From the NCBI GenBank assembly GCA_027486035.1, contig JAIXPX010000033.1, positions 1 through 64,000 on the forward strand: a stretch of DNA of 64,000 nucleotides, read 5' to 3'. The DNA comes from Erythrobacteraceae bacterium. Lineage in GTDB: Bacteria > Pseudomonadota > Alphaproteobacteria > Sphingomonadales > Sphingomonadaceae. A program made the position numbers and the translations under genes. This document shows, piece after piece, positions 41,992-45,201 of this stretch. Within the stretch, counting starts at the first letter, position 1. Every line of letters begins with the position of its first letter. Below the pieces are notes generated by a model. That model had not been told where the DNA came from, did no database searches, and saw only the letters and a list, made by a program, of their open reading frames with translations.

Positions 41992-42548
41992 TCGCCCAGC
42001 CCCTGCGCGGCAAGCGCCTTGGCGACACGCCGGGTCTCGGCCTTGGCGGGCCGGATCGGGGAGGCATCGACGAGGAAGTCGCCGAAGGCCTGGGTGAAGA
42101 CCGCGCCCGCGCTCTTCTCGGTGGAGGCAGACGCAAGCGTGACCTTCGCGCCCGAGACCGGCGAGCGCATCGGCGCATCGGCGGCGGCAGCAGCAGCAAC
42201 ATCGCCAGCGTCGGCCTTGGCCAGACGGATCGGGTTCGGAGCGTCAGGCCCGCGCACCTCGCCGAGGCTCGCGAGCTGGCGCTCTCCCTCGAGGAACTGG
42301 CCCGAGCGCGGCGCGCCATAGCCGAATTCGACCTGGTTCCACTCGGCGAGCTGGCGCTGGTTGGCGCGGGTCTCGAACTCGGTCTCGAGCAGCAGCTTCT
42401 CGCGCTCGAGCGCGATCAGCTGGCGCTCGGCGAGGAGCACCTGACTCTTGACCGCGTGGACCTTGAAACTGAGCACCGTCATCACCGCAAGGCAGACCGA
42501 CAGAACGGCGGCCCAACCCAGCGACCGGACCTGAGAGCTGTTCATCAT
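41988..42548 (-). CDS. ftsL: cell division protein FtsL
   Basis: A 186-residue bitopic membrane protein. The N-terminus is followed by one helix (about 9-28, [19 protein letters not shown]) and a leucine/glutamate-rich coiled coil (about 32-70: [20 protein letters not shown]). FtsL pairs with FtsB to activate FtsWI. The C-terminal half is Ala-rich and poorly conserved, making it longer than E. coli FtsL (121). Sequence alone is weak evidence; the position between rsmH and ftsI, with four-base overlaps on both sides, makes the assignment reliable. Confidence 0.88.
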
Positions 42549-43501
42549 GCGGCGAGGCTCCTCGGTGATGCGGTGGTGCGGACAGCGTGACGCAGGGTGG
42601 ACGACCGCGCGCGGGGGTTGCGGGCGATTTCGGCCTCGGACGGACGGATGGCCTTCGAGACCTGGGCGAAAGTCGGCGGGGGACCGGCGATTTCTCCCGG
42701 AAGATGGCGCGAAACCGCTCGGCCAGCCGCAGAAGCGCCGCGCAGGAATTGCTTGACGATCCGGTCCTCGAGGCTGTGGAAGCTGACCACCGCCAACACC
42801 CCGCCCGGCCGCAGAAGCGCCTCGGCCGCGGCAAGGCCCGCCTCGAGCTCGCCGAGCTCGTCGTTCACATGGATGCGCACCGCCTGGAAGGTGCGGGTCG
42901 CCGGGTCTTTCTTGTCGTGCGGGCGGTGCCCGAGCGCACGGCGCACCACGCGGGCCAGCTCGCCGGTGGTCGCCAACGGGCGTGCGGCGACGATGGCGCG
43001 GGCGACGCGGCGCGACTGGCGCTCCTCGCCATAGCGGTAGAGCACGTCGGCGATCGCTTCCTCGTCGGCGGTGTTGAGGAATTCCGCCGCGCTCTCGCCG
43101 TCCTGGCTCATGCGCATGTCGAGCGGGCCATCATGCATGAAGGCAAAGCCGCGTGCCCCCTGGTCGAGCTGCATCGAGGAAACGCCGATGTCCATCACGA
43201 CGGCATCGACCTGGGTGACGCCGATGGCGGCCAGCTCCTCGCGCATCGCCGAAAAGCGGGCCGGATGGAGCGCGAGGCGACCATCGTGGCGCGCCACCAG
43301 CGCCTGCCCGGCAGCGACGGCATCGGGATCGCGGTCGAAGGCGTGGACACTGGCACCGGCCTCGAGCAGCGCGGTGGTGTAGCCGCCCGCGCCAAAGGTG
43401 GCATCGACGATGGTCATGCCCGCCTGCGGCTGGAGCGCGGCGAGCACTTCATCGAGCAGCACCGGGATGTGGGGAGCCGAGCCGGAGAGTTCGGGCGTCA
43501 T
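42545..43501 (-). CDS. rsmH: 16S rRNA (cytosine(1402)-N(4))-methyltransferase
   Basis: SAM-dependent methylation of C1402 in the 16S decoding centre. 318 residues from ATG 43501, overlapping the mraZ stop (ATGA); the track ORF from 43846 reads through mraZ in a shadow frame. Motifs: [13 protein letters not shown] at the start, [18 protein letters not shown] for [22 protein letters not shown] near 110, [18 protein letters not shown] near 220, and [16 protein letters not shown] near 255. It is the second gene of the dcw cluster, as in most bacteria. Confidence 0.95.
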
Positions 43502-43992
43502 TCCGCGACTCCCTTGCGGGCGGCGGCGACAAGCTTGGCGCAGCTTGCCTGCGCGCCCTTCCATTCCGGCCCCATGCGGGCAAGCTCGGCCGGGTTCCAG
43601 ATGAAGAAGAACTCGCCCGCGCCCTGGAAATAGAGCCCGCCCTCGATCTTGCCGAGATCGCGCAGATGATCGGGCATGACGAAACGGCCGCTGTCGTCGA
43701 ACGGCAGCTGCTCGAAGCCGAACAATTGCTGGGCGCGGACATCGCGGTCGAAGTCTGCCAGGCCGAGACGGATCGCGCGCTCTTCCTCGCGCTCGAGCTG
43801 GGCTTCGAGCTTTTCGGTGCGCGACAGGCCGAAGCCGACGAGGCAATCAAAGCGGTCATGGGCGGCAAGGCACAGTATGCGGCCCTGCGAGCTGTCCTTC
43901 ACGGCCTTGCGGAAGGCGGAGGGCAGGACAAAGCGACCCTTGTCGCCTGCCGGCGAGAAGGCCTGTCCGCTATATCCTCCAAAGGCAGACAC
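43498..43992 (-). CDS. mraZ: transcriptional regulator MraZ
   Basis: Dimeric SpoVT-AbrB-type regulator of the dcw operon. 164 residues from GTG 43992 ([20 protein letters not shown]), with AGGGG about 11 bases upstream; the track start at 44151 would add 53 non-family residues. Two MraZ repeats are present: [15 protein letters not shown] near 17, and the second repeat [16 protein letters not shown] near 100. E. coli MraZ binds TGGGN repeats spaced ten bases apart upstream of its own gene and represses it. Comparable GGGA arrays are present here at 44176 and 44329. Confidence 0.93.
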
Positions 43993-44175
43993 GTGCCTGC
44001 AATCCCCTTTACCCCGGGCAGAGCACCTTGCGGCAGCTCCGCGACAATCGACGCGCTCGCATTCCCCCGGACAGGCCCTCCATGCTCCGGTCCGCGCGCA
44101 CGCGACCCGGCTGCGCCGACCGAAAGGGCCGGACGCGAGACATTCAGGCATGTCTGATGGACTCCGGTAATATCG

Positions 44176-44220
44176 GGGATGGCGCGGGGATGGAAGGGAA
44201 AATTGCGGGATTTCACGGGA
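44176..44220 (+). promoter_or_regulatory. GGGA repeat array, candidate MraZ operator (proximal)
   Basis: Five GGGA units begin at 44176, 44187, 44196, 44207 and 44217, i.e. 11, 9, 11 and 10 bases apart, all on the plus strand (opposite to mraZ). The last two lie in GCGGGATTTCACGGGATA. The roughly one-turn phasing resembles the TGGGN operators of E. coli MraZ. Confidence 0.5.
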
Positions 44221-44328
44221 TAACTTGATATTTTTCTGAATTTAAAGCGTTTTCGTGGCAGATTTGCGATGCCACACGCGGCGCATTCCGCCAAAAAGCC
44301 GCGCAAAAAGCGCCCGGAACCGCGATTT

Positions 44329-44385
44329 TCCCGTGATTTCCCGCAGGACTCGGGGGCTGCGTGCCCCCTGCTCCCGCGATTTCCC
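44329..44385 (-). promoter_or_regulatory. GGGA repeat pairs, candidate MraZ operator (distal)
   Basis: On the mraZ coding strand, GGGA occurs in two pairs of exactly ten-base spacing (plus-strand TCCC at 44329 and 44339, and at 44372 and 44382). The first pair lies in GCGGGAAATCACGGGAAAA, nearly identical to the proximal array but inverted, so the two arrays face each other across the AT-rich promoter. Confidence 0.45.
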
Positions 44386-44394
44386 CGATCGTGG

Positions 44395-45201
44395 CTAACG
44401 CAGGGCCGCGTCGATCAGCGCGGTGAGGCCAAGGCCGCCTGCGCCCGCCAGTTCGCTGTGTTCGAAGATTGCGGCATCGGCGATCAGCGTCACCTGCCCC
44501 TTGCCCACCCGGCAGCGGGCGGCGGCGCCCTCTGCCAGCAGCGTGCAGCAGCCGGCAGCTCCAGGAGGGGCAAGGCTGATCCGTCCCGTCAGGGCCAGCG
44601 GCAGCGGGGCATCACCGAGGCGGCTGGCGATCACCCCCGGTGCCTGGTCCGGATCGAAGCCGATGCCCATCCCCCAGCGCCCCACCACCGGCGGGATCGG
44701 CGCGCTATCCACGGGCCGCCGCGGATCGCCCAGCGGCAGGTCATATTCGCCCGTGAGCGCCGGATCGAGCACCAGCAGCAGCCGGCCTCCGGCGCGCACC
44801 CAATCGTCGAGCGCGACATTGTCGGCCGGGGAAAGCCCGCGCGGCTGGATCACCGCCAGCCGCGCAAGGCCCGCCAGCGGGTCGATATCGGGTGCATCGG
44901 GTGACAGCGCGGGGATCGGGGAAAGCGTGTCGAGCGGCTCGATGACATAGGCCGCCTCAAGCGCCTCGCGCTGCCACGGCACACCCGCAGCGCCCCCCGC
45001 GATCGCGCCGACATCGGCGCCCAGCGGCCAAACCAGCGGCAGGCTGCTCATCAGCCCGATCCGCGCGAGCGGTGCCGCGCCCGCAGGCTTTTCCTCGGGC
45101 GGGGCGTCCGCTGCCGGAGCAGCATTGCAGGCGGCCAGGAGCAGCGTCGGCAGCAGGGCGCGCAGCGGGCCTGCCAGACGGCTATTGCGCGGGCGCGGCA
45201 T
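44395..45201 (-). CDS. lipoprotein, DUF4350/GldG-like
   Basis: 268 residues from ATG 45201 (MPRPRNSRLAGPLRALLPTL), giving a lipoprotein signal with lipobox LLLAAC (Cys about 24); the 368-residue track ORF extends into the neighbour's shadow. The central region AVIQPRGLSPADNVALDDWV followed by RAGGRLLLVLDPALTGEYDL resembles the GATase-like fold of DUF4350 and GldG-type ABC-associated proteins. The end (GKGQVTLIADAAIFEHSEL) continues that fold. Its start overlaps the upstream membrane protein by 20 bases. No ABC transporter is adjacent, so the role is unknown. Confidence 0.72.
   Translation of the reverse strand: MPRPRNSRLAGPLRALLPTLLLAACNAAPAADAPPEEKPAGAAPLARIGLMSSLPLVWPLGADVGAIAGGAAGVPWQREALEAAYVIEPLDTLSPIPALSPDAPDIDPLAGLARLAVIQPRGLSPADNVALDDWVRAGGRLLLVLDPALTGEYDLPLGDPRRPVDSAPIPPVVGRWGMGIGFDPDQAPGVIASRLGDAPLPLALTGRISLAPPGAAGCCTLLAEGAAARCRVGKGQVTLIADAAIFEHSELAGAGGLGLTALIDAALR

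Follow-up and report, generated by a model that had tools for sequence, protein, structure and literature searches.

Facing, helically phased GGGA arrays as a putative autoregulatory MraZ operator upstream of the dcw cluster in Erythrobacter-type genomes

The stretch of DNA considered here (the window, 64,000 nucleotides) carries mraZ and rsmH, the first two genes of a dcw cluster, on its minus strand. The gap between mraZ and the next gene upstream on the same strand is occupied by two arrays of a GGGA repeat that face each other. The genes and arrays are as follows.

42545..43501, minus strand: rsmH (mraW), second gene of the dcw cluster (PF01795, 306 bits)
43498..43992, minus strand: mraZ, encoding a divergent MraZ transcriptional regulator (PF02381), with a GTG start at 43992 and rsmH/mraW as the next gene
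44175..44220, plus strand: proximal array of five GGGA units, which are CCC units on the mraZ sense strand
44329..44342, minus strand: distal array, pair 2, GGGAAATCACGGGA, with a further GCGG 10 bp on
44372..44385, minus strand: distal array, pair 1, GGGAAATCGCGGGA, 43 bp from pair 2
44395..45201, minus strand: upstream gene, ABC_transp_aux/DUF4350-like by a resemblance that lies below the Pfam cut-offs

The arrays sit upstream of the first gene of the dcw cluster, the location expected of an MraZ operator. The initial annotation described five GGGA units at 9- to 11-base steps on one strand, two pairs at exactly ten bases on the other, and near-identical inverted core blocks, and all three descriptions hold. 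The proximal units are direct repeats at 44176, 44187, 44196, 44207, and 44217 of the plus strand (steps of 11, 9, 11, and 10). On the minus strand, the distal GGGA pairs (TCCC on the plus strand) lie at 44329/44339 and 44372/44382 with a spacing of exactly 10 within each pair, and the two pairs are direct repeats of each other, 43 bp apart. The core blocks at 44204-44223 and 44326-44345 are inverted copies of 20 nt that are 85% complementary. The proximal chain of five is the sole GGGA chain of at least three units at 9- to 11-base steps on either strand of the 64-kb window, in which single copies of GGGA number 201 and 212 on the two strands. The pattern GGGAWNNNNCGGGA has 19 copies in the 2.55-Mb genome, three of which fall inside the 180-bp array stretch; a reversed control pattern has 8.

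For comparison, mraZ upstream regions were collected from ~80 members of the Erythrobacter-type genus, which named relatives of the window MraZ identify as Erythrobacter/Porphyrobacter, and from ~60 genomes elsewhere in the family and order. The two arrays are found again in the ~80 Erythrobacter-type genomes and throughout the family. Alignment of the genus members is nearly gap-free over the five CCC units (mraZ sense), which are followed by GATATTACC and TCCATCRGACATG. Chains of at least four CCC units at 9- to 12-bp steps are present in 106 of 149 upstream regions, compared with 3 of 745 shuffled sequences. The initial annotation had held that an operator would be disproved by loss of the phased repeats in close relatives; a motif search upstream of mraZ in relatives finds them kept. 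That the arrays are coincidental, GGGA being common in a G+C-rich genome, is contradicted by all of the shuffle controls and by the genus- and family-wide conservation; we rejected this explanation and consider its probability to be vanishingly small.

A profile of the proximal array (R1) was searched against ten genomes and gave one strong match per genome, always at mraZ, in 10 of 10. In four of them, that of the window included (G000, G078, G209, and G050), the match that follows is to the distal array at that locus, in inverted orientation; these scores are weak (E 0.08-3.8, 4 of 10 genomes), with the match in the window at 44326-44345. As to a wider MraZ regulon, neither R1 nor the pair pattern revealed a convincing further locus in the window's own genome. 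One occurrence of GGGAATTTGCGGGA, at C42:186922, ~95 bp past the end of a TonB-receptor-like gene, was considered as a second site and judged to be due to chance.

With five G-runs of 3-4 on one strand, the proximal array could be thought to form a G-quadruplex, as has been proposed for the S. aureus mraZ promoter (PMC11796246). The loops between the runs are 7, 6, 8, and 7 nt, however, such that every set of four runs exceeds the usual limit of 7, and a quadruplex would leave the helical spacing, the bases flanking GGG, and the phase with the opposite-strand array all unexplained. We rejected this structure on the basis of loop lengths and flanking conservation and regard it as very unlikely.

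The distal array is also periodic. In the distal zone of 72 genus members, GGGA pairs at exactly 10 bp number 109, compared with 1.5 expected, and in 53 other genomes of the family, they number 43, compared with 0.6 expected; TCCC has no 10-bp peak in this zone. A second GGGA peak at 33/43 bp reflects two pairs fixed 43 bp apart, which is conserved in the genus, and the 10-bp pair is absent in 9 of 77 genus members. The description of the minus-strand side as two pairs is accurate for the window; in relatives, the pairs are part of a longer phased array with slots of ~10.5 bp.

Distances from a distal unit to the first proximal unit are 83, 93, 114, 124, 135, 146, 156, 167, 177, and 187, and on a 10.5-bp ruler, they give an R of 0.78 (372 units), compared with 0.07-0.29 for control 4-mers. 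Genome mean phases agree with an R of 0.89-0.90, also among 18 genomes that are <60% identical over the block (permutation p<1e-4), and the phase relation extends to other genera (31 genomes, R 0.67-0.74, p<1e-4). Phasing is weaker for the distance to the upstream stop codon (0.44 at 10.5). The slots of the ruler are filled differently in different genomes, and the median block identity of 0.57 is little above that of shuffled sequence, 0.51. The facing arrays sit on the same helix face. Part of the conservation of helical phase could be due to a scarcity of indels since these genomes shared an ancestor, and the distal array, situated at the upstream gene's 3' end, might have another role.

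These distances bear on whether the arrays act together. MraZ could instead bind the two arrays independently, with the distal array as an auxiliary site that either blocks transcription reading through from the upstream gene or serves as a local reservoir, with no bridge or loop and with the phase inherited. Consistent with such a role, the distal array begins ~10 bp past the upstream stop codon in the window and in most genus members, and inverted arrays would be awkward for one rotationally symmetric ring. A roadblock, however, would not have to be in phase with the promoter array, and inheritance fits poorly with distances that are quantised at 10.5 bp but occupy different slots in different genomes, also in other genera. 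Independent binding is possible, but we consider it on the whole unlikely.

The presumed binder is itself unusual. A PF02381 domain is found in the window MraZ by hmmscan (28.5 bits over a cut-off of 23, in two stretches); a PF02381 search of the window's own genome gave no match, a limit of sensitivity as hmmscan does find the domain. The NCBIfam MraZ/TIGR00242 equivalogs match at E 1e-13 but under their cut-offs (51.4 compared with 162 and 20.9 compared with 98.35), and comparison with E. coli MraZ gives E 0.0017 over 116 columns. By these matches, the window MraZ is a divergent member of the family. Its loop reads A-G-D-K-G-R, in which the Arg of canonical D-x-K-G-R is retained and the first Asp is Gly. 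This loop Asp of canonical MraZ is Gly across nearly the whole Erythrobacter-like clade (AGDKGR/RGEKGR; 43933-43950 on the minus strand of the window), a change that sits in an otherwise highly conserved MraZ signature. Structure prediction for the monomer from an 11-sequence alignment was poor (pLDDT 54). A sequence search of solved structures with the window MraZ did not recover MraZ entries, whereas canonical MraZ recovers 1n0e as well as 9qlg, 9qlr, 9sx6, and others. One genus member (G066; C127, C41; L081, L083) has two mraZ-like genes with 54% and 47% identity to that of the window; the assembly is listed as 7% contaminated, and the pair may reflect a mixture.

The box sequence is where the arrays depart from expectation. 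The initial annotation had invoked the TGGGN repeats of E. coli MraZ, but the boxes here are CGGGA/GGGGA and not the TGGGN/GTG core: the proximal units read GGGGA, GGGGA, AGGGA, CGGGA, and CGGGA, with T before GGG in none, and the distal array has GCGGGAAATCACGGGA compared with GTGGGAAATTGTGGGGCAAAGTGGGAATAAGGGG / GTGGGAAATTGTGGGG in E. coli. In outgroups of the order and in some family members, CCCAT recurs two to four times at 10 bp in the same place, which corresponds to canonical ATGGG boxes of MraZ, and the outgroups with ATGGG repeats have the canonical D-x-K-G-R loop. In the clade of the window, CGGG boxes accompany a G-[DE]-K-G-R loop. The fraction of TGGG boxes is 0.70 with the loop Asp and 0.07 without it, and the distal boxes follow the loop as well (47 with C and 2 with T where Asp is absent; 5 with T and 5 with C where it is present). 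Because the evolutionary events are few, with three changes of loop residue and six of box on the tree, this co-change is suggestive and is not an independent statistical test.

Four small, AT-rich genomes of genus g50 (G171, G255, G311, and G354; L206, L203, L202, and L204) have only an unrecognisable ORF of ~124-131 aa upstream of rsmH, at the expected place of mraZ. MraZ is unrecognised in these genomes, and an array upstream of rsmH was not seen by eye, which together represent one evolutionary event; mraZ may have decayed or diverged extremely in this genus.

Could a DNA-binding protein other than MraZ use the arrays? The link of MraZ to the sequence is indirect, the box departs from the published TGGGN/GTG core, and the MraZ is as divergent from its E. 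coli counterpart as described above. Against this idea, the arrays have the same place and the same 10-bp periodicity as the outgroup ATGGG boxes, to which there is a continuous transition, R1 finds no further strong genomic site, and the array is not seen where MraZ is unrecognisable. We find another protein quite improbable. That the arrays are an MraZ operator, most likely one with an altered box and a two-part layout, is well supported, and the original proposal of a candidate MraZ operator, with phased arrays upstream of mraZ that are conserved in relatives, survives in this form.

Candidate elements of a promoter and of a bending site lie in and next to the proximal array.

44167..44174, minus strand: putative −10 element, GATATTAC, of GCTANAWC type, adjoining the last array unit; GATATTACC is kept in the genus
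44190..44195, minus strand: putative −35 element, TTCCAT, inside the proximal array and 17 bp from TATTAC; CCCTTCCATCCC is conserved
44229..44241, minus strand: position of an IHF-like site, with genus consensus AAATCAnnnnnTTACC and a degenerate ATTCAGAAAAATA in this genome

An AT-rich promoter between the arrays, as envisaged in the initial annotation, is not what these elements indicate; the likely promoter is inside the plus-strand array, with the −10 beside the last unit. This conserved −10 fits the alphaproteobacterial GCTANAWC type. The putative −35 is a weak match to TTGAC, and a sigma-70 consensus scan found no promoter at this region. The putative promoter probably overlaps the proximal array.

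This overlap can be read in two ways. With a −35 as poor as TTCCAT, the array could be an activator site of class II, for MraZ or another protein, and MraZ is described as an activator in mycoplasmas in work cited in PMC7761207. The MraZ proteins of E. coli and M. genitalium, however, are reported to be repressors (PMC8475190), and a protein at this position would collide with RNA polymerase. An activator site strikes us as improbable, and we favor a repressor site.

The AT-rich middle between the arrays carries an IHF-like site in relatives. The sequence WATCAANNNNTTR, the IHF consensus, is present with at most one mismatch within 75 bp in 45 of 82 genus members, compared with 6.5 expected, and 40 of these 45 sites are at one exact offset, between the arrays. 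In other genera, such sites number 16 of 33, compared with 1.6 expected. The site in the window genome has three mismatches and does not qualify as an IHF site; genes for IHF alpha, IHF beta, and HU are present in the genome.

The mraZ mRNA also has a conserved structured leader.

44065..44162, minus strand: structured 5' leader of the mraZ mRNA, conserved, ~97 nt (covariance model R2, 74 bits; covariation)

Model R2 recovers the leader in the same position at ~30 loci from other genera. The leader is conserved in length, and its closing stem, GACATGCC...GGCRTGTC, has compensatory changes in 8 of 13 pairs and is 91% paired, compared with 20-58% when slid. No Rfam family matches the leader, and the single-sequence fold of the window leader is not better than shuffles (z −0.2), the support being comparative only. 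We consider the leader to be a candidate new RNA motif, conserved across the family (L158, L183, L184, L164, and others). By analogy, its role may resemble that of UpsM, likewise a long structured 5' leader of mraZ, in the dcw cluster of Rhodobacteraceae (PMC5089854). The R. sphaeroides UpsM leader contains a terminator and yields an sRNA (PMC5089854), whereas a ~97-nt structured core is seen here, and a scan found no terminator in the window. A separate short hairpin lies between the distal pairs (44352-44368 of the window; GGGGGC/GCCCCC in mraZ sense). The corresponding position in near relatives reads GGGACTCGG...CCGAGTCCC, without a T-run, and the hairpin is perhaps a terminator of the upstream gene.

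We propose that the cluster's own divergent MraZ recognises the arrays, which would constitute an autoregulatory operator of the dcw cluster. MraZ rings would assemble on the five-unit proximal array, overlapping the −35/−10 of the mraZ promoter, and as MraZ levels rise, mraZ-rsmH-dcw transcription would be shut off. The distal inverted array, separated from the proximal one by 8 to 18 helical turns and on the same face of the helix, would offer MraZ a second site and would most likely strengthen repression through cooperative contact of two bound rings in a short loop. In many relatives, this loop could be aided by an IHF-type bend beside the proximal array. Replacement of TGGGA by CGGGA in this clade matches the changed DNA-binding loop, G-D-K-G-R for D-x-K-G-R. 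That MraZ represses from the proximal array and that the distal array adds cooperative binding seems likely to us. The fuller proposal for MraZ of Sphingomonadaceae, a bipartite operator in which inverted phased arrays are joined by ring-ring contact across an IHF bend and in which the box switch from TGGG to CGGG evolved together with loss of the loop Asp, we put forward more tentatively, at somewhat less than even chances. If it is correct, this locus would present, to our knowledge, the first MraZ operator that loops DNA, together with a naturally occurring switch of specificity among MraZ proteins.

An octameric toroid has been described for MraZ (PMC7761207). The initial annotation suggested that an MraZ ring bridges both sides of the promoter. 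The shared motif and the helical phase are as a loop requires, and bridging of both arrays by MraZ is plausible, but a single ring spanning both is the part of this suggestion that fares poorly. Because one rotationally symmetric ring in a simple U-turn needs direct, not inverted, arrays, one ring holding both would be geometrically awkward, and two rings, one per arm, should fit better.

In most bacteria, MraZ governs the beginning of the division and cell-wall cluster, and this locus allows one to ask why its ring carries a greater number of DNA-binding faces than a single four-box site would use. With two arrays on one helix face, the ring question is testable with spacing mutants, and the natural change of box and loop offers a direct route to the residue that reads the first base of the box.

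The locus can be compared with known MraZ sites and with looping systems. Like the MraZ box region (MRB) of E. coli Pmra, it has xGGG repeats at 10-bp steps just upstream of mraZ, the first dcw gene. The E. coli MRB is one array within ~45 bp of the start codon, with its G-strand on the mraZ sense strand, whereas here the core has C for T (unit GCGGGAAATC compared with GTGGGAAATT in E. coli), the near array is inverted relative to the gene and >180 bp from the start codon, and a second facing array is added. The MraZ sites of Burkholderia cenocepacia and Mollicutes are likewise short phased repeat series at the mraZ promoter but have a GTG core in a single array, with no facing array described in the accessible parts of these sources (PMC7761207, PMC8475190). 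Outgroups from this order and family (L085, L089, L196, and L205) carry ATGGG arrays that share strand and place but have TGGG boxes and a canonical D-x-K-G-R MraZ; these arrays are probably the ancestral state of the window array. The literature searched, from which the original E. coli paper was absent, treats MraZ sites as single repeat arrays and does not describe facing arrays, a CGGG box, or MraZ looping; for this judgment of novelty, the MraZ PDB entries of the 9qlg group were considered by name only. Repressors that loop DNA between two phased operators form the GalR/HU and LacI class, and in these systems, as here, two sites on one helix face flank the site of a bending protein. The operator proposed here differs in having multi-unit arrays and a ring-shaped regulator, with a loop that is putative.
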